Below, one piece after another: positions 15,889 through 30,332 of a stretch of 64,000 bases of DNA. Position 1 is the first letter of the stretch, and every line of letters starts with the position of its first letter. The position numbers and the translations under genes were made by a program. The notes beneath the pieces were generated by a model, which saw nothing but the letters and a program-made list of their open reading frames with translations, was not told the origin of the DNA and searched no databases. Source of the DNA: Desulfuromonas sp. (lineage in GTDB: Bacteria > Desulfobacterota > Desulfuromonadia > Desulfuromonadales > UBA2294); NCBI GenBank assembly GCA_002869615.1, contig PKUH01000108.1, positions 62,001-126,000 of the forward strand, in the 5' to 3' direction.

Positions 15889-16167
15889 CTATCGATCATA
15901 ATCGAGGAGCTCAATCCCCTCAGCGGTCGCCAGCATTTTAATATTAACCGGATAATCTTTGCCCGGAACATTCCGTTTACCTTGAAGAATAGCTTCGCCA
16001 TAAGTATTCAGCATGTCAACAATCTGTTCCGGTGACTCTTCGATAATAAATTTCTGGTAAATACCGGTGCGCATCAGATCTTCGCGCGTCACTGCCTTTT
16101 CCGGCGGCAAGGCACATGCGGCTAAAGCAAAAACAAGCACCAGAACTGATAAAACGAATTTCTTCAT
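15889..16167 (-). CDS. Small lipoprotein of unknown function
   Basis: A 92-residue protein starting MKKFVLSVLVLVFALAAC with a clear type II signal peptide and lipobox LAAC. The mature part is short, polar and without a domain I recognise (RTGIYQKFIIEESPEQIVDMLN). A GGAGGAG site precedes two consecutive ATGs (16170, 16167). It lies 28 bases after the cysteine desulfurase-like gene, so it could be the last member of the 12.7-kb sigma-54 operon, or the first gene before the PIN-PhoH gene. Function unknown. Confidence 0.7.
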   Translation of the reverse strand: MKKFVLSVLVLVFALAACALPPEKAVTREDLMRTGIYQKFIIEESPEQIVDMLNTYGEAILQGKRNVPGKDYPVNIKMLATAEGIELLDYDR

Positions 16168-16195
16168 CATCTCCTCCATGATCAGGATGACATTT

Positions 16196-17335
16196 CTATC
16201 GCGTAATTTGCCCAAGGGCATCAACAAGTTTTTCAATATCGTCCGTACTGTTGTAATAGCCGGGGCTGACCCTGACCGTACCACGCGGAAACGACCCGAT
16301 TGTACGGTGCGCATCCGGAGCACAATGCAGACCAACCCTGACCATAATATCGTATTCATTATCAAGACGGAAACCAATTTCAGCAGGATCGAAATTTTTA
16401 CAATTAAACGAGACGGCACCACCATGATTGGCAACATCACTCGAACCGTAAATAGCGACATCATCCAGCGAACCCAGACCATCAAGCAGCAGCTGCAAAA
16501 GAGATTGTTCATGTTCCCGGACGGATGCCAGTCCGATCTCATTAAGATACTGAACACCAGCCAGTAAACCAGCGATCCCGGGCGTATTCAACGTCCCACT
16601 TTCAAACCGCTCCGGCATTTCTGCAGGCTGCGCCCCTGACTGCGACAGCGTACCGGTACCACCGTAGATCAGCGGCTCAAGCTGAAGCCCCGGTTTTACG
16701 TACAAAACGCCAACCCCGGGTGGACCCATCAATCCCTTGTGGCCGGCGGTTGCGAGGAGGTCTATCCCCGATTCCCTTAGCGAAATCGGCAACAGACCGG
16801 CACTCTGCGCCGCATCGACCAGAAGAAGAATATCATTGTCACGACAGTATGCGGCGACCTGCTCAACCGGCTGAACCGAACCGGTCACATTGGAGCAATG
16901 GGTCATCACAACAAGCCGGGTCGGTTTCCGGCAGGCGGCGATAATATCGGCGGCAGCTATAGTCCCGGACGGGTCTGCCGATACTTTCTCGACTACGACA
17001 CCCCGGTCCTGCAATGCATGCAGCGGTCTGAGCACTGAATTATGTTCCATCGTCGTCGTGACGACCCGGTCACCGCTGCCAAGTAACCCGAACAACGCAA
17101 GATTGATCGATTCGGTCGCCCCCGAGGTCAAGATGATCCGGGCGGAATCATCAACTGCAAAAAAATCTGCCAGTGCTTCCCGGGCGTCGAATACCATTCT
17201 GGCCGATTCAACCGACATGCGATGACCACCGCGACCAGGATTGGCACCATAATTACGAAAAGCATGATCCACGGCGCGGTATACCGCCTCCGGCTTTGGA
17301 AATGAGGTTGCAGAATTATCAAGATAGATTGACAT
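16196..17335 (-). CDS. Class V aminotransferase, cysteine desulfurase family
   Basis: A 379-residue PLP enzyme of the NifS/SufS-like superfamily. Seen: YLDNSATSFPKPEAV at the start, GATESINLAL, TTTMEHNSVLRPL, VDAAQSAGL, the PLP lysine in TAGHKGLMGPPGVG, and a C-terminal VGLHCAPDAHRTIG containing the candidate sulfur-accepting cysteine. Enzymes of this branch are known or proposed to mobilise sulfur or selenium from (seleno)cysteine. It is the last enzyme of the peptide-maturation operon (3-base gap from the SPASM protein). With the YedE-type permease this suggests S or Se supply for the system; that link is inference. Confidence 0.85.
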   Translation of the reverse strand: MSIYLDNSATSFPKPEAVYRAVDHAFRNYGANPGRGGHRMSVESARMVFDAREALADFFAVDDSARIILTSGATESINLALFGLLGSGDRVVTTTMEHNSVLRPLHALQDRGVVVEKVSADPSGTIAAADIIAACRKPTRLVVMTHCSNVTGSVQPVEQVAAYCRDNDILLLVDAAQSAGLLPISLRESGIDLLATAGHKGLMGPPGVGVLYVKPGLQLEPLIYGGTGTLSQSGAQPAEMPERFESGTLNTPGIAGLLAGVQYLNEIGLASVREHEQSLLQLLLDGLGSLDDVAIYGSSDVANHGGAVSFNCKNFDPAEIGFRLDNEYDIMVRVGLHCAPDAHRTIGSFPRGTVRVSPGYYNSTDDIEKLVDALGQITR

Positions 17336-17338
17336 AAA

Positions 17339-18277
17339 TTATCGAGGACCCTTACACATCGGATCGATCCCGCCGGCAATATCGAGAACTTGAGACAGAC
17401 CACGGCAACCACCAAAACATATCCCGTAATCCTGGCAGCCGGAGCATCCTGCCGGTTCCGCGGCCACCGCTCGACGAATCCCGGCACGCTTGGCGGATGC
17501 CCAGATCGTTGCGAAAGATGAGTCGAGCAGCGAACCGAGACGACTTGGCCAGGTTATACAGGGCCAGACAGCGCCGTCGAAACGGATATGGGCGAGGCTG
17601 TTGCCGGCCTGGCAGCCACCATATTCGCTGCGGCTCTCCGAACGTTCCGGGGCCAGCAACTCCCAGAGAAAAAGATCGTGAATTTCAAGCTGACAAGCAC
17701 CCTTTTCATGTCCTTTTGCGGAGATTTCTTGTCTGAAGTTTTCAAGATCATCCGGTCGCAGCGCCCGGTCGGAAAGGGCCTGGAAATTATTATCAATTCT
17801 GACATTAGGCAATTTAAACCGGGGAAGTTCCAGGTTGCAACATAGCTCGTAAAGCGACAACAGAAATTCAATATTATTACGACCCGGAACCAGGGACAGC
17901 CCTGGATTGAACCCGGCGTCACGCACTTCCCGGATGACGTTTTCAATAGCCTGCTCATCAGGTTGGCCGTCGGTACAGAAAGGTTCGGCCCGAAGCAACA
18001 ACTCAGCACCATGCAAGGAATGGTCGGAAAGAACGAAGATTTCATCCGGAGTGCCATCAAGCATTAATGTCAACCCGCAGCCATGGGCACTGAGTTGAGC
18101 GGCAATCTTGAATATCTGCGGATGCAGCAACGGCTGTTCTTCGAGCAGAACAAAAAAAGGTCGGGCCTCGATCAAACGCTGCAAAACGGTCGTGACAGTT
18201 TCATCCGCAGCGGCGTAGCCGGAACCGAACAGATCCCAGGTTACCCTGATCGGGTTTTCAAGACTTCCTAATGTCAT
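17339..18277 (-). CDS. GeoRSP-type SPASM domain protein with degenerate radical SAM domain
   Basis: A 312-residue protein whose N-terminal half resembles a radical SAM barrel, but the region where CX3CX2C should lie (about residues 10-25) has no cysteine. The C-terminus is a full SPASM-like cluster region: CQAGNSLAHIRFDGAVWPC, then CSGCQDYGICFGGC and a final MC near the end. It may bind auxiliary Fe-S clusters and present the peptide or assist the active radical SAM enzyme encoded just upstream. I chose the ATG at 18277. It has no real ribosome site because a T-rich hairpin tail lies directly before it, so translation may be weak or coupled. Confidence 0.8.
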   Translation of the reverse strand: MTLGSLENPIRVTWDLFGSGYAAADETVTTVLQRLIEARPFFVLLEEQPLLHPQIFKIAAQLSAHGCGLTLMLDGTPDEIFVLSDHSLHGAELLLRAEPFCTDGQPDEQAIENVIREVRDAGFNPGLSLVPGRNNIEFLLSLYELCCNLELPRFKLPNVRIDNNFQALSDRALRPDDLENFRQEISAKGHEKGACQLEIHDLFLWELLAPERSESRSEYGGCQAGNSLAHIRFDGAVWPCITWPSRLGSLLDSSFATIWASAKRAGIRRAVAAEPAGCSGCQDYGICFGGCRGLSQVLDIAGGIDPMCKGPR

Positions 18278-18280
18278 GGC

Positions 18281-18318
18281 CAAAACAAAACAAGGGGCAG
18301 CAAGTCGCTACCCCCTGT
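18281..18318 (-). terminator. Strong hairpin plus T-tract after the 18-residue peptide (terminator, attenuator or SECIS-like)
   Basis: On the minus strand ACAGGGGGTAGC pairs over 12 positions (one G-U and one U-G included) with GCTGCCCCTTGT around loop GACTT. TTTTGTTTT follows. It lies 4 bases after the UGA of the peptide gene. As an intrinsic terminator it would raise peptide dosage over the distal genes. Loop position (about 16 nt after UGA) also falls in the range for bacterial selenocysteine insertion elements. Confidence 0.7.
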
Positions 18319-18322
18319 AAAA

Positions 18323-18379
18323 TCAGCAGGGATGGACGTTCGATGAACCAACTACTCGCGGTTTCTGATATTTCCTCAT
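18323..18379 (-). CDS. 18-residue GeoRSP-associated peptide ending HPC
   Basis: A very short gene with an ideal ribosome site (AAGGAGG, 6-base spacing to ATG). The product is MRKYQKPRVVGSSNVHPC followed by UGA. It lies between the radical SAM/SPASM gene and its SPASM-only partner, the place where a substrate peptide is expected. It has a basic N-terminal half and a GSSNVHPC tail. No signal sequence. If UGA were read as selenocysteine the product would continue Sec-Phe-Tyr-Arg-Gly and stop at the TAG at 18308-18310. Substrate role and any modification are inferred from position, size and translation signals, not shown. Confidence 0.75.
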   Translation of the reverse strand: MRKYQKPRVVGSSNVHPC

Positions 18380-18412
18380 CTTATGCCTCCTTTTTAACGG
18401 TTAACGAATGGT

Positions 18413-19417
18413 TTATTTCCAGCAGTGCGGGTCGGGTTCGCTGAAATCACCGGTCGTTGCAAAAGCCCTGGCTGTGCAGCCGCCCATACAGGATTCAAAT
18501 GAACCGCAATCGCCACATTTCCCTTTAGCTTCCTTGTTGCGCATCTTGTTGAGGATCGGTGAATGATACCAAAGCTCATCAAAATCGTCCGTCAGGATAT
18601 TCCCGACCACGAGCGGAATAAAGCCACAAGGCGTGATATCGCCATTCGGTCTCAGATGAAGTGAAAGCTTACCACAGCTGCTCCCCTTGACCAACGGGTT
18701 TTCACTGTATTCCGGCAGTGACGCGATGACCGGATCGTCAAATGAGATATCAAGGTCATCGGTTTCGGCCTTAACCTGCAGCGCCTCGACATAAAAAGCC
18801 TTCCACTCTTCCGGTGACAGATCAAGATCTTCCCGGTTTTTGAAGCCGCGCCCCGAACACTTGAAATTGTGCAGATAGACCTGGTCGACACCATGTTCCC
18901 GTGCCAGATCAAGCAGTCCTCTAAAATCCCGGTAGTTGATGCGGGAGATGACCGAGCTCATCGTCGTTCGGACACCGGCCCGACGCAGCGCGTCAAGAGC
19001 ACCCGTCGCCCGGTCGAAAGAACCGGCCATACAGCGGAAGTCGTCGTGCAATGCCGCGTCAACGCTGTCGACACTGATGCCGACACTCTTGAACCCCGAA
19101 TCCTTTATCCGGGCGGCGGCCGTATCATCGAGAAGCCATCCGTTGGAATTCATCGAGACGTTGAGACCTTTTGACGAGGCATAGGTAGTTAATTCGAAGA
19201 GATCTTCCCGGATCAACGGTTCGCCGCCGCCAAAATTAATGAACGGAACCTGTTTTTCGGCAAGAATTTCAACGATTCTTTTATTCTCGGCCGTCGTGAC
19301 CTCCGGGACCGATTCATCGCGGCTGTAACAGTGGATACAACTGAAATTACAGCGAAATGAGAGCGTCCAGTTAAAGGTCAGCGGCGCCGAAAAGAGTTCG
19401 GTAATATCAGTCGACAT
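18413..19417 (-). CDS. GeoRSP-type radical SAM/SPASM peptide maturase
   Basis: A 334-residue radical SAM enzyme. The 4Fe-4S motif is RCNFSCIHC (Cys23, Cys27, Cys30). FGGGEPLIREDLF gives the SAM-binding GGE motif, and SVGISVDSVD lies later in the barrel. The C-terminal SPASM region begins at about residue 237 (GSSCGKLSLHLRPNGDITPCGF) and ends with CGDCGSFESCMGGC and HCWK, typical of enzymes that modify ribosomal peptides (PqqE, anSME relatives). It overlaps the PqqD-like gene by 11 bases and precedes the peptide by 33 bases. The likely substrate is the 18-residue peptide; the chemistry (crosslink, thioether, other) is unknown. Confidence 0.9.
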   Translation of the reverse strand: MSTDITELFSAPLTFNWTLSFRCNFSCIHCYSRDESVPEVTTAENKRIVEILAEKQVPFINFGGGEPLIREDLFELTTYASSKGLNVSMNSNGWLLDDTAAARIKDSGFKSVGISVDSVDAALHDDFRCMAGSFDRATGALDALRRAGVRTTMSSVISRINYRDFRGLLDLAREHGVDQVYLHNFKCSGRGFKNREDLDLSPEEWKAFYVEALQVKAETDDLDISFDDPVIASLPEYSENPLVKGSSCGKLSLHLRPNGDITPCGFIPLVVGNILTDDFDELWYHSPILNKMRNKEAKGKCGDCGSFESCMGGCTARAFATTGDFSEPDPHCWK

Positions 19418-19730
19418 AATTCAGCCATCCCCTTTCAACGAGATCTTTGATAAACGCATCGACATCAGCAACAAGCTCATTGCGATCCACACTAAATTCT
19501 GCGGCCAGGGTATCGGCAATCGCATCACGATTACGCGTCCCGTCACACATCTGCCAGATTGAGCCACCAACATAATTGAGCTGATGCATCGTTCCGGCAA
19601 CGACCAGAATCACCGTCCCCTGCTCGTCTACATCTTCACCCGCTTCAAGAGCGGCTATAACCTCAGCCTCCCGTTTGGCTTCGGTCCGCCAGACAATTTT
19701 GGGATCCCGTACAATATTTTTCAATGTCAT
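19407..19730 (-). CDS. PqqD-like peptide chaperone (GeoRSP system)
   Basis: A 107-residue protein with a PqqD/RRE-like fold: GTVILVVAGTMHQLNYVGGSIWQMCDGTRNRDAIADTLAAEFSV resembles the PqqD strand-helix-helix core, where the 'hLN..g..iW...dG' pattern is diagnostic. PqqD proteins bind the leader peptide and hand it to the radical SAM partner encoded next. ATG at 19730 is chosen (GAAAGGC upstream). An alternative TTG at 19757 would overlap the stop of the upstream permease gene as TTGA, implying coupling. Confidence 0.8.
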   Translation of the reverse strand: MTLKNIVRDPKIVWRTEAKREAEVIAALEAGEDVDEQGTVILVVAGTMHQLNYVGGSIWQMCDGTRNRDAIADTLAAEFSVDRNELVADVDAFIKDLVERGWLNYVD

Positions 19731-19753
19731 GCCTTTCGATTCAACCGGGTCCG

Positions 19754-20821
19754 TCAAAGCGGAACCCGTTCACGGTATACAAGTGTGTTCAGCAGAATAA
19801 AGGCCAGACCGGCAAGAACAGCAATTTTGCCATAAATTCCGACACCGGCAGCAGTCGCTGCTATTCCCCAGGCCTGAACAAGGCCGCCACCAACAAGCAT
19901 GCCGACAACGACCATCCCGGCGTCACTGTCGCCCTCACCCGCCTTTATCATCTGCCGGAACGGACAACCGCCAATAACAACCGACAACCAGCCGACAAGA
20001 AGCATCCCCAGAAAGCCCCATACAAATTCCTGGTGAGCTCCCGGTTGACCGTAATACCCCAAATTGAAACCGCCGGAAAGAACGCTTGTTGAAACCGCGA
20101 CAACAAAGAATGCCAGCAGACCCCACGCGAGAGGCGCGCGTGGCCCCATCAGAAACAGATCACGGATGCTCGCCGTGATACAGAAACGGCTCCGCTGAGC
20201 GAGAAAACCGAGCAGAAGACCGGCCCCGAGGGAAATAAGCAGTGGCGCATGCAAGGAACCACTCCCGGTGACTGAATTCCGGATAAAACCGGGCTGAAAT
20301 ATGGAAAAAAAGAACAGAAGCAGAAACAGGCCGGGAATCCATAAGCCGCTACCTCCGCGCTGCTCCCGGGCGCGGCCGAGATGAACGCCGGCAGTCAGGG
20401 CCCTGATTCCGAGCCAGACGCCGGCTGCCAGGCCGGCGAGTCCGGAAAAAGCGGTCAGGTCGCCGGCGGTCAGGCGGAGAAAAAGCTTGATCGGGCAGCC
20501 GATAAAAACCGCACAGCCGACAATCAAAAAGACTCCGGAAACGAATCGGGGCAATGCCGCGCTGCCACCCCTGGAACGGAATTCACCGAGCAGCCGCGAA
20601 CTGATAACAGCGCCAAAAATAAAACCGGTCAATTCGGGCCGGAGGTACTGCATCCTCACATTGTCATGCAGACCGATCGCCCCGGCGCTGTTTTCAACAA
20701 AACAGGAGACACAGACCCCGGAATTGTCAGGATTCCCCCAGACCGCGAGCATGACCCCGAGCAGTCCAAGCAAACCGCCCGACAATGTTATCATCCAGAA
20801 ATGGCGATCAAATACCGGCAT
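19754..20821 (-). CDS. YeeE/YedE membrane protein, selenium-type YedE/FdhT
   Basis: A polytopic membrane protein (about 355 residues, 9-10 hydrophobic segments) with internal duplication. Repeated conserved cysteines lie in GVCVSCFVENSAGAIGLH, FIGCPIKLFLRL, RSRFCITASIRDLFL and GGCPFRQMIKAGEGDSD. The second half matches the YeeE/YedE fold that imports thiosulfate or related chalcogen species. The N-terminal 'GNPxN-GxCVxCF' pattern resembles the subgroup called selenium metabolism membrane protein YedE/FdhT. Here it lies in a peptide-modification operon rather than beside selD. ATG 20821 or GTG 20830 (closer to GGAGGG) are both possible starts. Confidence 0.82.
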   Translation of the reverse strand: MPVFDRHFWMITLSGGLLGLLGVMLAVWGNPDNSGVCVSCFVENSAGAIGLHDNVRMQYLRPELTGFIFGAVISSRLLGEFRSRGGSAALPRFVSGVFLIVGCAVFIGCPIKLFLRLTAGDLTAFSGLAGLAAGVWLGIRALTAGVHLGRAREQRGGSGLWIPGLFLLLFFFSIFQPGFIRNSVTGSGSLHAPLLISLGAGLLLGFLAQRSRFCITASIRDLFLMGPRAPLAWGLLAFFVVAVSTSVLSGGFNLGYYGQPGAHQEFVWGFLGMLLVGWLSVVIGGCPFRQMIKAGEGDSDAGMVVVGMLVGGGLVQAWGIAATAAGVGIYGKIAVLAGLAFILLNTLVYRERVPL

Positions 20822-20822
20822 A

Positions 20823-21362
20823 TTATTCACACCCTCCGGCCAGGCGGCTTTGCAGGTAATAGGTTTCCTTCAATGCTTTTTCAAGACCCGATGTCCGGTT
20901 GTTCTGCATTGATGATTTAATGGCCGGGATCGCCGACTCGACCAGCCGCCCAATCTGTTCACGGCGGTTCAGACTGCTGTTGGCATCGACATAGTCGCCG
21001 TTCATCTTGACAGCTTTTGCATACTGGGCGATACCTTCGTTCAGGACGCCCTGACTGACCAGAATTGATCCACGCAGAATGAAGATATGCGGCTCCCCGG
21101 GAAATTCCTTTTCCAAATCCTGCAATTTCAAAAGCGCTTCCGGATAGCGTCCGGCCTGCATCAAGCTCTCCACCGGCTGAAAAGAGTCGATCAGGAAAGC
21201 CGACCGCGCCCGTTCCTGCATCGCCCGCTCAACAGCCAGATTCTGTTTCGGCAGTGACATGGAGTCATCGGAACCGATAAAACCTCCGAGCAGCAGCCCG
21301 ATACCGACCAGGCAGGCGGCAAGTCCGAGCAGTATCAATTTATCAAACAGATCTTTAAACAA
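20823..21362 (-). CDS. Membrane-anchored TPR-like protein
   Basis: A 179-residue protein with one N-terminal membrane segment (LILLGLAACLVGIGLLLGGF) and a periplasmic helical region. The stretch AGRYPEALLKLQDLEKEFP and VLNEGIAQYAKAVKMNGDY look like two TPR units, suggesting a scaffold. The start is a TTG with AGGAG six bases upstream, directly after the stop of the PhnD-like gene. The end overlaps the permease gene. No enzymatic motif is seen; family not recognised. Confidence 0.7.
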   Translation of the reverse strand: MFKDLFDKLILLGLAACLVGIGLLLGGFIGSDDSMSLPKQNLAVERAMQERARSAFLIDSFQPVESLMQAGRYPEALLKLQDLEKEFPGEPHIFILRGSILVSQGVLNEGIAQYAKAVKMNGDYVDANSSLNRREQIGRLVESAIPAIKSSMQNNRTSGLEKALKETYYLQSRLAGGCE

Positions 21363-22271
21363 TCAGAACTCCTGATATGGCGGCATGTTGGCGTTTCTGG
21401 CCATACGCCGGATCGGGTCATAATCACTGTCACTCAGCTGTTCAAAACCACTGATCCAGGCTGAATCGAGCACCTTGAGCGTCTCACCATTATACTTAAC
21501 AGTTGTTTCCGGGGTGATGGCAAGCAGAGCTTTGCGGAAACGGCTGACCATTTCCTCCGGAATCGAACTGGCAGCGCCAAATGTGCAATAAGGGATGACC
21601 TCACTCTGGGCAACGATATTGAAATCATCCGGCGAAATCCGACCATCCCGGGCCATCAGTTCAAGATCAAGGGCCGGTGCTGCGGCAACGTCATATTCAC
21701 CGAAATAAACGCCGTAGACGACCTTTTCATGTTTGAACGAACCATGCGGAATCGCGTAATACTCAAGATCAATTTCGGGATCGAAACCGGCATTCAGCAT
21801 CAGATCATACTGGGCTAGATACCCTGACGGCGCCAGCTGCGGGCCGAACACCATCCGCTTCCCTTTAAGGTCTTCGATCCTTTTGATGCCGCTCCCTTTT
21901 CTTGAGATGATTGTTCCGGCTGTCCGGGCACCGTACTGGCCACGCTTCTCGGTGGCGATTAATTGCATCTGCCGGTTTTCCTTGAGCATGATGTACAGCA
22001 ACGAATTGCTGTGGCCGAACTCGAATTCCCCGGCCGCGAACCGTTCGGAGAAATCCTGGGTATCGACCGGTACAACCTTGAAATCGATATCGAGCTGTTC
22101 CGACAGGTAAGCGGTCAACGGTGAGAAACGTGCAACCGTCTCGACCTCACTGTTGCAGTTCATATAACCGATGCGCATCACCGGGCGTTCCTTCACCTGG
22201 TCGCATCCCACCGAGACGAACAGAAACAGGGCCGGAACCAGCCAGCTGGCTCTCCGTAATATTCCGCACAT
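21363..22271 (-). CDS. PhnD-like periplasmic binding lipoprotein
   Basis: A 302-residue lipoprotein (lipobox SVGC, Cys23) of the phosphate/phosphite/phosphonate binding-protein family. Typical features are RIGYMNCNSEVETVARFSPLTAYLSEQL, EFEFGHSNSLLY, and GKRMVFGPQLAPSGYLAQYDLM with the SxSG-like loop replaced by APSG. No ABC permease or ATPase gene is nearby, so it may work as a sensor or carrier for this system rather than for import. Ligand unknown. It lies 11 bases after the first beta-helix gene. Confidence 0.82.
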   Translation of the reverse strand: MCGILRRASWLVPALFLFVSVGCDQVKERPVMRIGYMNCNSEVETVARFSPLTAYLSEQLDIDFKVVPVDTQDFSERFAAGEFEFGHSNSLLYIMLKENRQMQLIATEKRGQYGARTAGTIISRKGSGIKRIEDLKGKRMVFGPQLAPSGYLAQYDLMLNAGFDPEIDLEYYAIPHGSFKHEKVVYGVYFGEYDVAAAPALDLELMARDGRISPDDFNIVAQSEVIPYCTFGAASSIPEEMVSRFRKALLAITPETTVKYNGETLKVLDSAWISGFEQLSDSDYDPIRRMARNANMPPYQEF

Positions 22272-22282
22272 ACATTAACCTT

Positions 22283-23359
22283 TCATTGGGCAAGCGGTTC
22301 TTCGAGCAGGCCATTGATCATGACCCGGCCGAGCCCTTGACGATCATCACCGTCCCGTATCATGGCCGAAAGAACATCCTTGTCAGAAGTCCCCCACCAG
22401 TTGGCCTCAACCGTAAAATCGCGGTCGCCATCATTGATCAATCCGTATTCGCCGTTATCAATAATCTCGTTATCAGCAACAATCGCCTGCGAATTAATAA
22501 CGCGCAGCCCGGCCCTGCCGTTGGCAACGATCCTGTTCAGCTTAATGGAAACAGGTGATTCCTCGAGATAGAGCCCGTGTTCCCGATTGTTCTCTACAAG
22601 ATTGTGCATGAAACTTCCCCGGGTCCGCTGCAGGTAAACGCCCCGTCGATTATCACGCACCACATTGTCGGTTAAGGTAATCTCTGAATCACGGAAGTTG
22701 GCACCATTGACCAGATTGTTTTCAATAATCGAATGACTCATCTGCAATGTGCTGTAAACGCAACGCAGACCCCAGTATCCACCCCGGATCTCGATCGTAT
22801 CGAGTTCTACAGAAGAATCGCGGAACTGGATGCCGTTGAAATTGTCTTCGAACCGACAATTGACAAGAGAAACCGTCGACTCCTGGAACTGAGCGCCGCG
22901 CTGATTGTAACGGAACTGCGAATGTGCCAATCGGGCTCTGGCGAAATGAGCATGGAAACCGCGATAACCATATTCGAAAAGACAATGTTCAAAACGGTTT
23001 TCATCGTTCGAAGCCATCATGTTGATTGCACCCCAGTCACCCGGAACCGGATCTGCTTCAGCCGACGTGAAGATTATTGGCCGTTCAGCAGTGCCGAGCG
23101 CCAGGAATCGGCCCTGAACAAAAAGCTCATGCGTACCGATTCCATCGTTATTGCTGTCCCTGCGGGTAAATCGGACAATCGTACCGGGCCGGACCTGCAA
23201 CGTCACGTCGGGTGCCACCGTTACAATACCATCAATCAGGATGTCACCTTCCCAGATCGTGTCCTGCCAGAGTGTCTGCTCGCCCGTGTAAAGGGTTTGA
23301 GCGTTAGGTGTCAGCGGCAATAGAATAACCAGAGATAACACAAGCATTAATATTCTCAT
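22283..23359 (-). CDS. Secreted NosD-like right-handed beta-helix protein
   Basis: A 358-residue protein with a Sec signal peptide (MRILMLVLSLVILLPLTPNAQT) and many beta-helix rungs with the pattern 'NxhxxNxxGhxh', such as VENNREHGLYLEESPVSIKLNRIVANGRAGLRV and NEIIDNGEYGL. It ends with the WWGT segment seen in similar periplasmic proteins. NosD of nitrous-oxide reductase clusters has the same fold and helps metal-centre maturation, and a NapH/NosR-like gene is in this operon; the parallel is suggestive only. It starts at an ATG overlapping the previous stop (ATGA). Confidence 0.82.
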   Translation of the reverse strand: MRILMLVLSLVILLPLTPNAQTLYTGEQTLWQDTIWEGDILIDGIVTVAPDVTLQVRPGTIVRFTRRDSNNDGIGTHELFVQGRFLALGTAERPIIFTSAEADPVPGDWGAINMMASNDENRFEHCLFEYGYRGFHAHFARARLAHSQFRYNQRGAQFQESTVSLVNCRFEDNFNGIQFRDSSVELDTIEIRGGYWGLRCVYSTLQMSHSIIENNLVNGANFRDSEITLTDNVVRDNRRGVYLQRTRGSFMHNLVENNREHGLYLEESPVSIKLNRIVANGRAGLRVINSQAIVADNEIIDNGEYGLINDGDRDFTVEANWWGTSDKDVLSAMIRDGDDRQGLGRVMINGLLEEPLAQ

Positions 23360-24147
23360 CGCCGCTCTCCACCAGGATTCTTGAGCAGAAGCACGTCGCG
23401 ATGATTACCTTTGATCACGGTCGGGTCATACGGGATCGCTGCAGGCACAACAAGACCGATATCATTACCACTCACGATGTTACGATCGATATAGGGGCGA
23501 CTGCTGGAATCAACTACAATGCCTTCCTCATCATTGTCGACGATCGTATTGCTTTTCAGGTACGCACGACAATCATTCCAGCAAAAGACACCCCCTTCGC
23601 CGTGCATAATTTCATTATCGAGGATTTTGGCTGCCCCACCCTGCGAAATGATGCCGTAGCGGCTTCCACTGATTTTATTGCCAATGATCTCAGGTGATGA
23701 ATCGATAATGTAAACACCGGTCTCAGCGGCAAGAATCTCCGAATTGTGCACAATCGAACCTGTTGTGCGATCGAGAATAATTCCGGCCCAGCCTGGCTCG
23801 CGCACATCAAAAGCCCTCTCCGGGATAAATCTGACCGGTGACTGCGGCTCGCCGTTGACGATCAACGTCCCCCGAACGATGATTTCAGTCAGTGGCGAGA
23901 GGCATTCCGGGTCGATCTTTGTACTCTGTGAATCACGGACTAGCACAGTGGTTCCGGGTTCGAAAGTCAATGTACTCCCTTTCGGGACCAGCAAGTCGGA
24001 TGAAACAAGAAGATAACCGCGGAAGTTGTTGTGGCCGGCTAAAACGCCAGCAATTTCGAGCGGCGCATCGGCACTGCCGCCGCGCACCAGATGTCCGCAG
24101 CCGGCAAGGACAAAGACACAGATCAAGGCTGTTGCCAAGCGCTTCAT
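23356..24147 (-). CDS. Beta-helix lipoprotein, paralogue of the next gene product
   Basis: A 263-residue lipoprotein (LAGC, Cys17) with the same parallel beta-helix type: LTFEPGTTVLVRDS, then rungs IVHNSEILAAETGVYIIDSSPEIIGNKISGSRYGI and NTIVDNDEEGIVVDSS. Both proteins share the 'VxPGTTVxF / PIxFT' entry region, so they look like a tandem pair. ATG 24147 follows GAGGTGGAT; an in-frame GTG at 24153 is less likely. It overlaps the upstream short PhnD-like gene by 4 bases. Function unknown. Confidence 0.78.
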   Translation of the reverse strand: MKRLATALICVFVLAGCGHLVRGGSADAPLEIAGVLAGHNNFRGYLLVSSDLLVPKGSTLTFEPGTTVLVRDSQSTKIDPECLSPLTEIIVRGTLIVNGEPQSPVRFIPERAFDVREPGWAGIILDRTTGSIVHNSEILAAETGVYIIDSSPEIIGNKISGSRYGIISQGGAAKILDNEIMHGEGGVFCWNDCRAYLKSNTIVDNDEEGIVVDSSSRPYIDRNIVSGNDIGLVVPAAIPYDPTVIKGNHRDVLLLKNPGGERR

Positions 24148-24626
24148 ATCCACCTCTGCTGCATCATGAAACGCCGGGCGACGACCATTGGCGGTTCACC
24201 TGCTTCGACCTTGCGACGCATGTTTTGAACGATATCCGGTGTTAACAGACGCTGCAATTTTGTCAGCGCCGGAGCAACCGTCGTAAATTGGATATTATCG
24301 AGGATGCGGGGTCCGGAAACAAGATAAGGCAAACCCGTTACCTCCATAACGACGTTGATGTCCGGTTCTGATCGCTCGGCAAATCCGTAATCGAGTCGTT
24401 CAGCGCTTATTTCCGCGATGAGATCCTTGCCGGCAAGGTCGACCCGCTCGGTCTCGACCCCGGTTTTCTCCTTGATATAAATTGAAACGATTGATGTCAG
24501 AACCCGCCCGTTCGCATCTTCCGGGACCCCCAGGAAAAGCTTTGGCCCGAAGCAGGCACTGACCGTTCCGGCTGCCAGACAAAAGACAAGAAGAATAAGA
24601 AATATTTTCAGCGTACGAACAGCCAT
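24144..24626 (-). CDS. Short PhnD-like periplasmic lipoprotein
   Basis: A 160-residue lipoprotein (signal peptide to VSAC, Cys25) resembling one lobe of a periplasmic binding protein: LFLGVPEDANGRVLTSIVSIYIKEKTGVETERVDLAGKDLIAEI and LPYLVSGPRILDNIQFTTVAPALTKLQRLLTP. It is about half the normal length of a binding protein, with no sign of a frameshift in the flanks. It overlaps the ferredoxin gene upstream by 19 bases. It may be a partner or a derived sensor domain; ligand unknown. Confidence 0.68.
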   Translation of the reverse strand: MAVRTLKIFLILLVFCLAAGTVSACFGPKLFLGVPEDANGRVLTSIVSIYIKEKTGVETERVDLAGKDLIAEISAERLDYGFAERSEPDINVVMEVTGLPYLVSGPRILDNIQFTTVAPALTKLQRLLTPDIVQNMRRKVEAGEPPMVVARRFMMQQRWI

Positions 24627-26101
24627 TCGAATACCGTTGCCAGATAAATTGAAAAGAGTAGAGATACACCGACGAGTGAGGCTGTAAAATAAGCGTTGTC
24701 GGTTGTTCCGTCAGACCGCTGCGATGACTTGAAACTGACCACGCCGGAGACAAGGAGTCCAACCAGCAGCACCAGCAGGATGATCCACTTGAGAACATCA
24801 AGCGGCAACAAGACGCCCGGAGCCGAAACCGTCTGGGTGACATTTATTGCCAGAAACGATTTTATACCACTCGGGTCACTTAAGGCCAATCCAAGATAAC
24901 CGGCCTTGGCGTTAATCTTGACCAATGCCAGGACCGCATGAGCCGCCAGAATCAACGGGATGTATGACAAAGCAAGGCGACCAAGATTCTTCCAGAAACG
25001 TTCCTCAACCGGTGCCGGGAGGCCTGGCTGCGGCTCCACGCCGGTCTGAAATGTCGATCGGATCTGACCAAAACGGTAAACGAGATAACCGGGCAGCATC
25101 AGCAGCAACGGCATGATCAGGGCAATCCAGATAACCGCCAGAACATAAAATCCACTCTCCTGCCAACCGAGCATCCGGGCGGTCTGTTCCGGCAACCAGT
25201 AAACGAGATCGCGCAATTCAACGTAGACCTTGCTGAAATTGGCAGTCAACAGGCCGAGCAGAGCGACAAAGAAGAAGGTTTCACCCGGACGCAGCCCCGT
25301 CGAATAGAGATCGGAAAGCCAGGGCCGGAAACCGACTTTGACATTATCCTTGTCGCAATTCTGCAGGCAGGTGAGGCAGAGAGTACAGTCGGCACTGTCA
25401 GCGATTTCGGAAGGAACGAGATTGACCGGACAGCCATCGAGCCGCCGGTGACGATAGACAACCGTCGAGCCGAGTCGATGCTGCTGCCATTCGGTCGGTT
25501 CGGAAATACACCGCTGCGAAGCACAGCCGCCACAGACGTCGCGATTGACGACTCTCAGTTGAAACGGTGCGATCCGGGCGTAGAGGCCGAAAACAGCGCC
25601 GGCCGGACACAACAGAGTGCAAAATGCCCGTTCCCGGAAAAACAGGCCGATGCCGGCGGCCAGAACAATACATAACGCAAGCAGAGTAGCCGTATAATCG
25701 GGATAACGATGTATCGCCAGGAAATAAATCATCAACTGCAAAACAATCAGTACAAGTGTTACCGGGATAAAGTTCCGCAACCATCCGGGCAACGCCAGGC
25801 GGAAACCGAGACGGGAGGTTAATCCGTTCAGCCAGCCGAGCGGACAGACAGCACACCAGCCACGGCCAAACAGCATCGCGATAAAGACCACGCCCATAAT
25901 CCACCAGACCCAGAAAAGATGATTGGTCAGGTTGGTGTACATCAACGGATCACGAACCTCGAGTCCGGCAATCCGGTGCTGATGCCAGCCCCAGGCGGCC
26001 ATTGCGACAAGCAGGACAAGACAGGTCGATCGGAGCAGACGCCATGTCCACACCGACTTTAAAACCGGGCCAATGTATTTTATGCGTAAAAGATTATCCA
26101 T
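24608..26101 (-). CDS. NapH/NosR-like polytopic membrane ferredoxin
   Basis: A 497-residue membrane protein with about 8-10 hydrophobic segments and several cysteine sets: GRGWCAVCPLGWL and ERAFCTLLCPAGAVFG (the CxxCP and CxxxCP motifs of NapH/NosR/CcoG relatives), then CGGCASQRC and a ferredoxin-like CTLCLTCLQNC near residue 245. Such proteins move electrons from the quinone pool across the membrane to periplasmic reductases or maturation factors. It is the only obvious electron-transfer member of the operon, besides the heme-type protein at its start. The redox partner is unknown. Confidence 0.85.
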   Translation of the reverse strand: MDNLLRIKYIGPVLKSVWTWRLLRSTCLVLLVAMAAWGWHQHRIAGLEVRDPLMYTNLTNHLFWVWWIMGVVFIAMLFGRGWCAVCPLGWLNGLTSRLGFRLALPGWLRNFIPVTLVLIVLQLMIYFLAIHRYPDYTATLLALCIVLAAGIGLFFRERAFCTLLCPAGAVFGLYARIAPFQLRVVNRDVCGGCASQRCISEPTEWQQHRLGSTVVYRHRRLDGCPVNLVPSEIADSADCTLCLTCLQNCDKDNVKVGFRPWLSDLYSTGLRPGETFFFVALLGLLTANFSKVYVELRDLVYWLPEQTARMLGWQESGFYVLAVIWIALIMPLLLMLPGYLVYRFGQIRSTFQTGVEPQPGLPAPVEERFWKNLGRLALSYIPLILAAHAVLALVKINAKAGYLGLALSDPSGIKSFLAINVTQTVSAPGVLLPLDVLKWIILLVLLVGLLVSGVVSFKSSQRSDGTTDNAYFTASLVGVSLLFSIYLATVFEWLFVR

Positions 26102-26113
26102 CTCGATCCTGTT

Positions 26114-27019
26114 TTAATGATACACGCTGTATGGTTCGACCATTTCTCCGTGGGCATCACGGTAGAAAACTGTTGTTCCCTGGATAACCGACAGTGAACG
26201 GGCCGACCATTCGCGAACAACCATAATTTCATCATTCAGTGCCTTCTCGAGCACGGCGACCGAACGCTGAGTCCCGATCGGACCAAGTGCCATGGCGGCA
26301 TTCATGCGAACCTCCCAATCTTCGTCGTTCAACCCGTCTATCAACGCCTTTTCAGCCCGGGCATCGCGCAGCTTGCCGAGAGCGAGAATAGCATCCTTTC
26401 GGTTCGGACCCTCGACCTGATTGAGCAGGACATCGAGTGACCGTTTATCACCAATATCGCCAAGAGCCCGGATCGCCGCCCCAGCCGCCACATGGCCTGC
26501 CGCGGGAATAAAAGCGATCAGTGGCTCAACCGCAGACCGGTTGAACTTGATCAGGGCCCCGGTCGCATAATGGCGGACCACAGCTTCCGGATCTCCGAGG
26601 GCGTGCAGCAGGTGTTCGATGGCGTCCTCTTGCCGAATTTCACCAAGCGCCCAGGCCGCAACATATCGTCTTTTCAGCTCCTTATTGCGCAATACTGCGG
26701 AAATCGGTTGAACCGCTTTTTCAACGCGCAGTGTCCCAAGGGCCGCAATGATACGTTCACGCTGGGCCCGATTGTCGGTCTGTACCGAAGTCAGCAGAGC
26801 ATCAATCATCGGCTTTCCGATATCGACGATCATCGGATAAACCTTCTCTCCAAGGCGGTTTTTATCGACACCGAGCATTTCAACCAGCTGTCGAGAGGCT
26901 TCGGCATCTCCCATTCGGGCCTTTTCAACATACGCATCCAGATCGATTGGCCCCTGCTGCTGACAGGCGACCAGGATAAGCATCAAGAGAAAACAGATAA
27001 TTATCTGAAACAATCGCAT
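26114..27019 (-). CDS. HEAT-repeat lipoprotein
   Basis: A 301-residue lipoprotein (lipobox LVAC, Cys19) made of about seven HEAT/PBS-lyase-like repeats: ERIIAALGTLRVEKAVQPISAVL, RYVAAWALGEIRQEDAIEHLLHAL, AAIRALGDIGDKRSLDVLL, AILALGKLRDARAEKALI and MNAAMALGPIGTQRSVAVLEKAL. It is a periplasmic scaffold by architecture. The start codon overlaps the previous stop (TAATG). No catalytic motif. Similar HEAT proteins occur in cytochrome and metal-cofactor clusters. Confidence 0.82.
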   Translation of the reverse strand: MRLFQIIICFLLMLILVACQQQGPIDLDAYVEKARMGDAEASRQLVEMLGVDKNRLGEKVYPMIVDIGKPMIDALLTSVQTDNRAQRERIIAALGTLRVEKAVQPISAVLRNKELKRRYVAAWALGEIRQEDAIEHLLHALGDPEAVVRHYATGALIKFNRSAVEPLIAFIPAAGHVAAGAAIRALGDIGDKRSLDVLLNQVEGPNRKDAILALGKLRDARAEKALIDGLNDEDWEVRMNAAMALGPIGTQRSVAVLEKALNDEIMVVREWSARSLSVIQGTTVFYRDAHGEMVEPYSVYH

Positions 27020-27771
27020 TACCAGACCTTGGTTACCGTAATATTGACATCCTGCAGGATTTCGCCTTCCTTGACAATGACCGCTGAAGGTTCAATTGTC
27101 CCCTGATCGTAGCGGCCATAGAGATCACCCAGTTTCGGTGGCCCCCCGAATTTGTCGCGAGCCGCTAGATAGTAGGTCCCGCCTTTCGGCAGGTAAATAA
27201 GATACTTGCCGTCGGGTGTTGTCTTTTCGGACACGTATTTCGGACGCTCGGACATCTGGACATGGTCATAGACATGAACCCGGGTCCCCTCAAGCGGGTT
27301 GCCGTCGCTATCAAAAATCGTTCCGGAGATACCGGTCTTGCCCGCCTCCAGCTGTTCACTCAATCGCCGCGAATCTCCGACCTTGACCGGTGCGACAATC
27401 GTCAGGGACGACAGGTTATCCTCGACCTTCAGATTGATAAATTCACTCCGGTTATCACCTGACACAACCGGTCCGTTCGCCTGGCCCTCCTGCCGTTTCC
27501 TGGCAACAACGACATACTCACCGGGAGGCAGCGACAGATCGAAGTGGCCGTCCGGACCGGTTGCCGGTGACACGGCAAAAGCAGGACCGTACAGATCCAT
27601 CCCTTTTTCATAAATGTACAGATAAGTTCCTTCGAGCGGAGCCAAGATCTGCCCCTGAACCTTTTTCAATCCGGTGTTGTCAGTGACGCCTGAACTGCCG
27701 GAATCGCTACAAGAGACAAGGGTAATAGCAACAAGAATTAATACCGGAACAAACAGCCTGTTCATTTTCAT
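27019..27771 (-). CDS. Carboxypeptidase regulatory-like lipoprotein
   Basis: A 250-residue lipoprotein (LVSC, Cys21) with two beta-sandwich segments of the carboxypeptidase regulatory-like type: VQGQILAPLEGTYLYIYEKG and ISGTIFDSDGNPLEGTRVHVYDH, each followed by PDGxF/Y-L-LPxGxY-hVxAR turns. These domains usually mediate binding or structural roles at the cell surface. Two in-frame ATGs (27771 and 27765) are possible; the first overlaps the stop of the upstream gene (ATGA). Function in the system is unknown. Confidence 0.8.
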   Translation of the reverse strand: MKMNRLFVPVLILVAITLVSCSDSGSSGVTDNTGLKKVQGQILAPLEGTYLYIYEKGMDLYGPAFAVSPATGPDGHFDLSLPPGEYVVVARKRQEGQANGPVVSGDNRSEFINLKVEDNLSSLTIVAPVKVGDSRRLSEQLEAGKTGISGTIFDSDGNPLEGTRVHVYDHVQMSERPKYVSEKTTPDGKYLIYLPKGGTYYLAARDKFGGPPKLGDLYGRYDQGTIEPSAVIVKEGEILQDVNITVTKVW

Positions 27772-28853
27772 TTAACATCCCCCCTGGGAAGTTGTGTTTT
27801 TGCCATCAGTACAAGTTTTTCTTCGGTTGAAGAAGCATAATGCTGATCAAGTGTATTATCCATAATCGACAACCCGTAGGAGACACCTTGCTCATCTCCG
27901 GGGACAAATACAACATCACGCCGGTCGCCGGTATCGAGAGCCCGTCTCAGCACGACAGTCCAGCCGCCGTCACGATATTCTGATGTTGCCCGGATATCGG
28001 CGCGACCGGCAACCGGAGGATCAACGAGATATCCCGGAGCAACCGATCCGGAAAGGCGGAAAGCGGATGCAATCGGCTGCTCATCATAATCGTAAAGAGG
28101 TGCATCTCCTTGGACAAAAGGTTCCCTGCCTGATTGCGCATACACCGAGTTCGGATGGAATATATCACCCGGAACATCCGGCTCCATTGATTTCATGGTG
28201 AGATAGCGATCATCGACAAAACCGGCCCGGCCAGTCCGGTCTGCTTTCCAGTTCCAGAGATCAACAAGACTGTTCTCACGGGCCAGCCGCATCCGATTGC
28301 GGGCGTGGAAATTGGCACCGGAGACGCCAAAATCCTCAATATGGCAGGCGTAGGAGCAGGAAAACTGCGGGAACGAACCCTGGGCATCCCACATCATCCC
28401 AAAACCATCCTCAAATCCAGGTCGGGCTGACCAGTCTTTACCATCGTACTGCCACTGGCGTAGATGATCATCACGTGTCGGATCACTCCACGACAATCGA
28501 ATATAAAGATCTCGAGCGGTATAAAAAGCCCGCAAGTCAACGACAACCGGATCGGGGAGCGCTGCCCCGTGATGACAGGATGCGGTCGAGGTGTGAACCG
28601 TATCTTCATCAATAGCGCCAAGCCGCGACGGCATATTGCGAAAACCGCCGCGTACCGCAACCTGGCGCGGCAACGCTGTCATCCAGTCATTTTCGGTCGG
28701 CGCATGGTCAAGTTGCAGAGCGTATAGCCGATCAACCGGCACTTCACGGCAACCGGTCGAACCGATCAGCAGAAAACCGACGCCGGCCAAAAGAGCAAGG
28801 AACAAACCCGACAGAATCTTTCGACCTGTATCATTTCTACGCAAAAGTCTCAT
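27768..28853 (-). CDS. Ethylbenzene-dehydrogenase-like heme-binding lipoprotein
   Basis: A 361-residue exported protein (lipobox STGC, Cys35) resembling the gamma-subunit/EB_dh heme-binding fold: DLYIRLSWSDPTRDDHL, DGFGMMWD, and GGWTVVLRRALDTGD. It also has ASCHHG and CSYACHIEDFG, a CX3CH arrangement that could attach heme c in a non-standard way. It is the first gene of the operon. The sigma-54 promoter predicts a 5' leader of only about 8 bases before the ATG at 28853 and I see no Shine-Dalgarno site, so the true start may be a few codons later or translation may be leaderless-like. Confidence 0.8.
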   Translation of the reverse strand: MRLLRRNDTGRKILSGLFLALLAGVGFLLIGSTGCREVPVDRLYALQLDHAPTENDWMTALPRQVAVRGGFRNMPSRLGAIDEDTVHTSTASCHHGAALPDPVVVDLRAFYTARDLYIRLSWSDPTRDDHLRQWQYDGKDWSARPGFEDGFGMMWDAQGSFPQFSCSYACHIEDFGVSGANFHARNRMRLARENSLVDLWNWKADRTGRAGFVDDRYLTMKSMEPDVPGDIFHPNSVYAQSGREPFVQGDAPLYDYDEQPIASAFRLSGSVAPGYLVDPPVAGRADIRATSEYRDGGWTVVLRRALDTGDRRDVVFVPGDEQGVSYGLSIMDNTLDQHYASSTEEKLVLMAKTQLPRGDVK

Positions 28854-28871: not shown

Positions 28872-28887
28872 AGCAAATTGCGTACCA
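28872..28887 (-). promoter_or_regulatory. Sigma-54 promoter of the GeoRSP operon
   Basis: Minus-strand TGGTACGCAATTTGCT matches the sigma-54 consensus TGGYACR-N4-TTGCW, with GG and GC exactly ten bases apart. The gene directly upstream encodes an NtrC-type activator. Transcription should begin near 28861. Confidence 0.82.
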
Positions 28888-28970: not shown

Positions 28971-30332
28971 TTAAACGAGACCGTATTTTTCCATTTTATA
29001 CCGTAGAGTAGTCCGCTTGATACCGAGAGCATCTGCGGCCCTCGTCTGCGAATTTTCATGACGCCTTAACGTCTGCAGAATGAGCTGCCGCTCAAGATCC
29101 TCAAGCAGTTCGGTCAGGTTTCCATCACGATCAGGAATATCGACACAAATCTTTTCATCCCCCTGCAGGGATTGCGGAAAGTCGTGTGGCGTCAGGGTTT
29201 CCCCTTTTGCCAGAACAACCGCCCGTTCAATCACGTTCTGCAGCTCGCGGACGTTTCCCGGCCAGTCATAGGCGAGCAGACAACTGATGGCCCGGGGCGA
29301 AAGATCATTGATCTTTTTTCCGGTATCAGCCGAGTAGACATCAAGAAAATGCCGGGCCAGACCTTCGATATCCTCACGCCGATTGCGTAGCGGCGGCATG
29401 TGAATATTAACAACATTCAGCCGGTAGTAGAGGTCGTCCCGGAAATTCCCTTCCTTGACTTCCCGCTCGAGATCCTTGTTGGTTGCGGCGACAATCCGGA
29501 CATCACAACGAATTGTTCGGGAACCGCCGACCCGCTCAAATTCCTGTTCCTGAATCACCCTGAGCAGCTTGACCTGGGACGATGGAGTCATCTCGCCGAC
29601 CTCATCGATAAACAGGGTGCCGCCATCCGCCAGTTCAAAGCGACCCTTTTTCGCATTCATCGCACCGGTAAAAGCCCCTTTTTCATGACCGAACAGTTCA
29701 CTTTCGATCAGATTCTCGGGCAGGGCTGCGCAATTCAGTACGATAAACGGATTGTCCTTGCGCGCCGAATTATAATGAACGGAACGGGCAATCAGTTCCT
29801 TGCCGGTACCACTTTCGCCGGTAATCATCACATTGGCATTCGAAACAGCGACCGAAGATGCCATATCGAAAACAGCCTGCATCCGTTCCGACTGACCAAC
29901 GATCCCGGAAAACCTGTACCGACCTTCAAGCTCCTGGTGCAGGTATCGATTCTCGGCAAGCAGCCGCTCTCTTTCGAATGCCTTGGCAACGGTCAGTCGA
30001 ATCTCGTCGTTCTCGAACGGTTTGGTGATATAATCGTAGGCACCGGCGCGCAAGGCCTGAACCGCGCTCTCAACAGTTCCGTAGGCAGTGATCACAATGA
30101 TCGGCAGATCCGGATTGAACTCCTTGAGTGCCTGCAACAGCTGGAGGCCGTCCATTTCCGGCATTTTAATGTCGGTAATAACCAGGTCGAACTGCTCGGA
30201 CTCGGCAAAGCGCAAAGCCTCGACTCCGCTGGCGGCCGCTACCGGATCATAACCGTACTTGGTCAACACCCGGCCCAGGAGCTTACGCATCCCGGCCTCA
30301 TCATCGACTATAAGAATTTTCTCGCCGGCCAT
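28971..30332 (-). CDS. Sigma-54-dependent response regulator (NtrC family)
   Basis: A 453-residue three-domain activator. The receiver domain (1-120) has DDE at the start, phospho-acceptor Asp in [14 protein letters not shown], and the TAYGT and KPF signatures. The AAA+ domain (about 140-380) has [16 protein letters not shown] (Walker A), [15 protein letters not shown] (the sigma-54-contacting GAFTGA loop) and [12 protein letters not shown]. The C-terminal Fis-type helix-turn-helix is [25 protein letters not shown]. No cognate histidine kinase is adjacent. Its position next to a strong sigma-54 promoter suggests it controls the peptide operon. It lies 3 bases after the diguanylate cyclase gene. 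Confidence 0.95.

Follow-up and report, generated by a model that had tools for sequence, protein, structure and literature searches.

Radical S-adenosylmethionine (SAM) maturation of peptides that involves a PqqD-type protein is a system of a known kind, and its closest described examples are the pathways to PQQ and mycofactocin. PQQ, which is built from Glu and Tyr, is made with a short precursor, a PqqD-type chaperone, and a SPASM maturase (PqqA, PqqD, and PqqE); a Cys thioether is another common product of SPASM enzymes. In the mycofactocin system (MftA, MftB, and MftC), MftC removes the carboxylate of the C-terminal Tyr of MftA and cross-links that residue (PMC9012708). A third set, GeoRSP, is covered by the NCBIfam models TIGR04302, TIGR04303, and TIGR04304; we found no paper on its function in the open-access literature, and the notes of the model curators may mention its peptide. 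Extracellular electron transfer has been studied almost wholly as a matter of heme proteins and pili, and a search of the same literature returned no paper connecting multiheme cytochromes with a radical SAM peptide. Here, we describe a GeoRSP-type operon in a 64,000-nt stretch of Desulfuromonas sp. DNA (GCA_002869615.1, contig PKUH01000108.1, positions 62,001 to 126,000; the whole stretch is referred to as the window), together with a family of Cys-terminated peptides to which the 18-residue peptide encoded in this operon belongs. The maturation is of the known kind; what is new is that further precursor genes of this family are dispersed in the genomes and tied to surface electron-transfer proteins.

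Judged by profile matches and alignments, the cassette in the window is a radical SAM/PqqD peptide maturation set of the GeoRSP type (table 1). The radical SAM maturase scores above the equivalog cut-off of TIGR04303, and its CX3CX2C motif and SPASM cysteines are conserved; the closest profiles after GeoRSP are AhbD, MftC, and NirJ, the nearest solved structure is PqqE, and the protein stays under the cut-offs of the mycofactocin model TIGR03962 (191 vs. 265 bits) and of the PqqE model (121.6 vs. 381 bits). The PqqD protein falls slightly under the cut-off of its best family, and its gene is adjacent to that of the maturase in conserved synteny. The SPASM-only partner, which lacks CX3CX2C and keeps the SPASM cysteines, is also best matched by a GeoRSP model, although far under the cut-off.

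The peptide of the window is one of 120 distinct copies, 17–21 aa in length, that follow the scheme Y-x-K-P-[RK]-[VI]-x-G-x-x-x-[VI]-H-P-C-stop. Our search pattern demanded the K, P, [VI], H, P, and C positions, coded V/I as RTN, partly fixed the K-P positions, and misses variants; Tyr at position -15 and Gly at position -8, which it did not demand, are nevertheless present in 120 and 118 of the 120 copies, respectively. A relaxed search showed that Thr, Pro, or Ala replaces Lys at position -13 in some Geobacter relatives. A Shine-Dalgarno-like site stands ahead of 119 copies and a hairpin lies 3' of the stop codon in 114, and the ratio of nonsynonymous to synonymous polymorphism (pN/pS) is 0.29 overall and 0.45 at codons outside those fixed by the pattern. 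A conserved short precursor with ribosome sites and protein-like pN/pS is thus encoded beside the maturase in orthologous loci, where the original prediction, which had been made from the window alone, called for its presence to be checked, and on this sequence evidence the 18-residue peptide is a genuine gene. Its conservation appears to resemble that of a cofactor precursor rather than that of a bacteriocin, by analogy with the precursor of mycofactocin (PMC3023750). In one lineage (f33 and its kin; loci L054, L097, L098, and L104), genes for the maturase, the PqqD and SPASM proteins, YedE, and PhnD are present and the HPC peptide was not found; a small open reading frame of the form M[KR][VI]SL[ST]NTKILLFRGK[KR]ML is conserved in these four loci and might be another peptide or a gene start.

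The genome of the window encodes five copies of the peptide, namely the operon copy and four others located elsewhere (C15:51709, C81:18655, C81:29699, and C87:39093; L158–L161), and other genomes encode one to six copies each. The genes directly upstream of the four dispersed copies encode two FG-GAP/ASPIC proteins and two multiheme cytochromes, one of 1,663 aa with 19 CXXCH motifs and fn3 domains and the other of 759 aa with 11 CXXCH motifs. Among 79 dispersed copies for which the upstream gene was in view, 41 follow a gene whose product has five or more CXXCH motifs, compared with 4 of 497 background genes, which were taken from GeoRSP loci rather than from whole genomes (Fisher's test, 5e-36). 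These partner cytochromes fall into several sequence groups and have up to 87 CXXCH motifs. The noncytochrome partners include ten FG-GAP/ASPIC proteins, eight Ig-like proteins with a lipoyl-type end, and two beta-propellers, and the partners have a median length of 846 aa versus 309 aa in the background. Relatives of the carboxypeptidase-regulatory-like (CpR) or beta-helix lipoproteins of the operon adjoin many dispersed copies. An FG-GAP partner was found in 11 of 16 genomes with the system and in none of six relatives without it, and it is missing from five system-bearing Geobacter relatives. All gene assignments are simple open reading frame calls, made partly on draft genomes, and some partner genes are truncated at contig ends.

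Several further features of the dispersed copies were recorded. About two-thirds of the peptide-adjacent cytochromes end in a sequence like W-N-x-[VK]-[TS]-P-W (e.g., L208, L217, L224, L234, and L241). The stretch of 15–120 nt between partner and peptide folds well (median -11.5 kcal/mol, L158–L257), and hairpins may therefore flank the peptide on both sides. Partners in f28, f91, and f100 (L200, L201, L203, and L205) are Ig-like proteins of ~1,060–1,190 aa that end in a biotinyl/lipoyl-like domain, and the gene before one copy (L226 near 6900, G430:C295) encodes no large surface protein but a rhodanese-like protein of the periplasm. We also considered that the peptide might be a C-terminal domain of the upstream protein, which is not supported given that it has its own ribosome site and starts a median of 67 nt past the stop codon of the partner. 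Peptides specific to their partners were rejected as well, as the sequences follow lineage rather than partner class; because of this, the copies look interchangeable. The known systems differ in these respects. In mycofactocin, the precursor gene is in the cluster and the dependent enzymes are dispersed, whereas here the precursor gene itself is dispersed; the precursor ends in VHPC rather than VY, and no MftD/E/F-like genes were noticed in the loci. Compared with PQQ biosynthesis, the peptide lacks Glu, PqqB/C/F were not noticed, and there are several precursor copies.

We surveyed the maturase in 395 genomes sampled across the phylum and fetched 58 loci from named genomes. The maturase is encoded in 27 of the 395 genomes and the peptide in 18, and 17 of these 18 are among the 27 maturase genomes (hypergeometric P ~5e-22). 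In the eighteenth, G247, the peptide-bearing contig has a YedE gene 237 nt from its end, and the maturase genes are therefore probably in an assembly gap. Cultured isolates with the maturase include Geothermobacter hydrogeniphilus HR-1, Pelotalea chapellei, Geomobilimonas luticola, and Geobacter sp. AOG1, so that the system can be tested directly in culture. The gene order is intact in close relatives from the NtrC-type activator gene through the desulfurase gene to phoH and tsaD, and it is kept across the Desulfuromonadales, with the core retained in distant families; the conserved synteny on which the original prediction depended was thus found. In the distant families f51, f28, f91, and f100, most loci keep a core of PhnD, YedE, beta-helix, PqqD, radical SAM, and peptide genes, and no match to the SPASM partner or the desulfurase was found in the loci of these four families. 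The SPASM partner is absent from several lineages whose maturase passes the radical SAM model, and the desulfurase gene was observed only in loci from the Desulfuromonadales. The Geobacteraceae have these genes in a rearranged order, and if the peptide gene is part of the cluster, it stands at the head, right behind the gene of a 34-heme cytochrome. Whereas the GeoRSP model names cover the triad alone, the system described here also comprises the peptide family, its copies behind multiheme cytochromes, a strict co-occurrence with YedE, a linkage to PhnD, and lineages without the SPASM partner, none of which is described in any open-access paper that we found.

Full-length YedE scoring above its cut-off is encoded in all 16 genomes with the system that were compared and in none of the six relatives without it (P = 1.3e-5); in the f29 genomes it is encoded at a separate place. 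No solved structure related to YedE was found by sequence. The PhnD-like gene is nearly always adjacent to the maturase system; the closest solved structures to its product are PtxB, HtxB, and ArrX, and the operon has no ATP-binding cassette transporter genes. Like YedE/SelD-type selenium metabolism, the system includes a YedE that passes TIGR04112, but the operon has neither selD nor yedF. SelD is encoded in 30 of 32 genomes, with or without the system, and a selenium link by way of SelD is therefore a test that yields no information in the genomes compared. The desulfurase resembles the selenocysteine lyase SclA and the EF2568 family.

The interpretation that we favor, and to which we give somewhat less than an even chance, is that a single maturase acts on Cys-terminated peptides, which are interchangeable and, once modified, function as a ligand or cofactor for extracellular electron-transfer proteins and other surface proteins. 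A stoichiometric ligand or cofactor is favored because the copies look interchangeable and yet are made beside each large surface protein. Under this interpretation, the operon would be the maturation and handling center of a dispersed ribosomal-peptide system. The PqqD protein would present the peptide to the maturase, which would modify the invariant HPC at the C-terminus through an oxidative decarboxylation or cross-linking of the MftC kind or through a Cys thioether. Once exported, the modified product would bind to the extracellular protein encoded upstream and act there as its redox or metal ligand, and each surface cytochrome or beta-propeller protein would thereby obtain a stoichiometric supply of peptide. 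YedE, PhnD, and the envelope lipoproteins could transport the product, or else its sulfur-type substrate, through the envelope and help with the loading; that YedE and PhnD may move either of these is the least supported step. In a narrower proposal, which is possible but doubtful, the modified peptide is made on ribosomes and acts as a redox or metal cofactor for the multiheme cytochromes outside the cell and for related surface proteins, each client being supplied from a gene beside its own. The original prediction had the modified peptide serve as a ligand or cofactor of a periplasmic redox enzyme, with the ferredoxin as the putative electron supply. That a ligand or cofactor derived from the peptide acts on the electron-transfer side of the envelope is, as a general idea, supported; the lipoproteins of the operon, however, are not the sole and probably not the main clients, because elsewhere the copies lie behind genes for giant multiheme cytochromes and for other proteins of the surface.

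Several points weigh against the ligand or cofactor interpretation. To the gene system, the co-occurrence, and the placement of the peptide genes, all of which are observed, it adds a chemistry and a role that we infer. Heme proteins make up about half of the partners, the others including FG-GAP, Ig-like (with a lipoyl-type end), and beta-propeller proteins, so that a purely heme-related role does not cover them all. The gene order of the operon alone does not tie it to the dispersed partners, and we recognized no conserved peptidase or dedicated peptide exporter. In a single lineage, represented by f33 and G413 with four genomes in total, the maturase and the core genes are present and no peptide was detected. 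Moreover, the upstream genes counted above include copies in related genomes and are not phylogenetically independent, and the YedE comparison covers 22 genomes in all.

With heme missing from about half of the partners, the strongest rival is a general assembly or export factor: the modified peptide would serve the assembly, secretion, or anchoring of large surface proteins, not as a redox group, and would be made with each client for its correct export or attachment by a machinery made up of the beta-helix, HEAT, and CpR lipoproteins of the operon. We regard this as a serious though on balance unlikely alternative. What the partners have in common is indeed size and export and not a cofactor, the FG-GAP and Ig-like ones have no CXXCH, and the CpR and beta-helix relatives beside many dispersed copies fit such a machinery; however, the core includes no secretion machinery, neither the YedE nor the PhnD family is known to contain assembly factors, and no sorting motif is common to all partners, the W-N-x-[VK]-T-P-W-like end being confined to about two-thirds of the cytochromes. 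The peptide could instead be the scaffold on which a small compound containing sulfur or selenium is built, with sulfur or selenium supplied by YedE, PhnD, and the cysteine desulfurase, a proposal in keeping with a YedE whose family is of the sulfur/selenium transport kind, the kinship of the desulfurase noted above, the occurrence of oxyanion binders (PtxB and ArrX, for example) among PhnD relatives, and a C-terminal Cys. We consider it quite improbable, as the desulfurase is confined to Desulfuromonadales loci, SelD is uninformative, and the placement of peptide genes behind surface-protein genes is left unexplained.

That placement might also be regulatory or mechanical, with the peptide gene and its hairpins stabilizing or terminating long cytochrome transcripts and the mature peptide serving a single function in the cell that has nothing to do with its neighbor. 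The strong hairpin after nearly every copy and the folding of the gaps before the peptide would agree with this, but the amino acid sequence is kept while codons vary, with a pN/pS typical of a protein product, and we think there is little chance that it is correct. Finally, as the window peptide ends in UGA with a hairpin immediately 3', the UGA after HPC could be read as a selenocysteine codon and the hairpin as a selenocysteine insertion sequence. The copies end in TGA (72), TAA (41), or TAG (7); this free choice of stop codon in orthologs excludes the selenocysteine reading to near certainty. Returning to the ligand or cofactor, in these metal-reducing-type bacteria the copies behind giant surface cytochromes hint at an unrecognized ingredient of extracellular electron transfer. 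If this is true, a conserved peptide that is probably modified, that is encoded next to many of the largest cytochromes, and that is served by one maturase in strict company with a YedE transporter is an overlooked component, and one of a new kind, of this process. The GeoRSP family models gain a substrate, and with it several candidate clients.

The operon runs on the minus strand from 28853 to 16196, and its genes mostly overlap or are separated by gaps of at most ~15 nt. It contains 14 protein genes and the peptide gene, and one more small lipoprotein gene, outside the region originally described, precedes phoH (table 1).

Table 1. Features of the operon and its surroundings in the window
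Feature	Position	Strand	Evidence
NtrC-type sigma-54 activator (response regulator), directly upstream of operon	28971..30332	-	synteny kept in close relatives
Sigma-54 (-24/-12) promoter TGGTACGCAATTTGCT	28872..28887	-	one mismatch vs. consensus
Lipoprotein with ethylbenzene-dehydrogenase-type heme domain (EB_dh; cytLP)	27768..28853	-	PF09459, 102 bits
CpR lipoprotein	27019..27771	-	PF13620
HEAT-repeat lipoprotein	26114..27019	-	PF13646, 109 bits
NosR/NapH-like membrane ferredoxin	24608..26101	-	Fer4_5; TIGR02163, 30.9 bits (cut-off 213, not reached)
Small lipoprotein, resembles one OpuAC/OpuBC-type binding-protein lobe	24144..24626	-	AlphaFold and Foldseek
Beta-helix (NosD-like repeat) lipoprotein	23356..24153	-	PF13229/PF05048
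Beta-helix (NosD-like repeat) protein	22283..23359	-	PF13229/PF05048
PhnD/PtxB-like substrate-binding lipoprotein, conserved core gene	21363..22271	-	PF12974, 177 bits
TPR protein, hydrophobic segment at N-terminus	20823..21362	-	
YedE family (sulfur/selenium-type) transporter, conserved core gene	19754..20830	-	TIGR04112, 387.8 bits (cut-off 200)
GeoRSP PqqD-family peptide chaperone	19407..19757	-	TIGR04302, 93.7 bits (cut-off 100); PF05402
GeoRSP radical SAM/SPASM maturase	18413..19417	-	TIGR04303, 433.6 bits (cut-off 400)
Precursor peptide MRKYQKPRVVGSSNVHPC-stop, 18 aa	18323..18379	-	member of 120-copy family
Terminator-like hairpin 3' of peptide gene, 13 pairs	18290..18318	-	-25 kcal/mol over 56-nt stretch, z = -4.5
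SPASM-only partner, radical-SAM cluster motif lost	17339..18283	-	TIGR04304 best match, 100 bits (cut-off 300)
Cysteine desulfurase/selenocysteine-lyase-like enzyme	16196..17335	-	TIGR01977, 466 bits; SclA NF040779, 345 bits, under cut-off
Small lipoprotein, 93 aa, between desulfurase gene and phoH	15889..16170	-	

The genes named in the original prediction are all present in the arrangement given there. Its inventory needs three changes: the YedE transporter, a strictly co-occurring component, had been overlooked; the heme-type lipoprotein is more precisely an EB_dh heme-domain protein; and of two supposed PhnD-like proteins one is upheld by its Pfam match, whereas the other, the small lipoprotein at 24626–24144, matched no family in profile searches. 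An AlphaFold model of the latter (pLDDT 91; best Foldseek E value 1.1e-3) weakly suggests a half-size OpuAC/OpuBC-like binding lobe. The 93-aa lipoprotein gave no match in Pfam and is conserved in Desulfuromonadales loci. A membrane ferredoxin and beta-helix proteins in one operon recall the nitrous oxide reductase accessory genes NosR/NosD/NosL, but the scores here are far under the cut-offs of the NosD model (23.6 and 16 bits vs. 300) and the NapH-type model, and the operon has no nosZ. The first four genes, which form a cytLP-CpR-HEAT-NosR module, are missing from the operon in several close relatives and are also retained in f51; in G267 this module adjoins a dispersed peptide gene instead of standing in the operon.

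Control of the operon by sigma-54, as originally proposed, is borne out by a site located between the NtrC-type activator gene and the first operon gene; TGGTAY-N5-TTGCT precedes the first operon gene in 17 of ~33 other loci, nearly all of these matches being in Desulfuromonadales, and it is conserved whether that gene encodes cytLP or the binding lobe. The activator is likely the regulator of the operon. The genome of the window has six TGGTAY-N5-TTGCT sites, one of them at the operon, compared with three in a reversed control, and the contigs of the other four peptide copies have none; we therefore rejected the idea that the dispersed copies are under the sigma-54 promoter of the operon. Within the operon, a strong terminator-like hairpin follows the peptide gene, and the peptide is therefore probably made in excess over the products of the two genes downstream of it.

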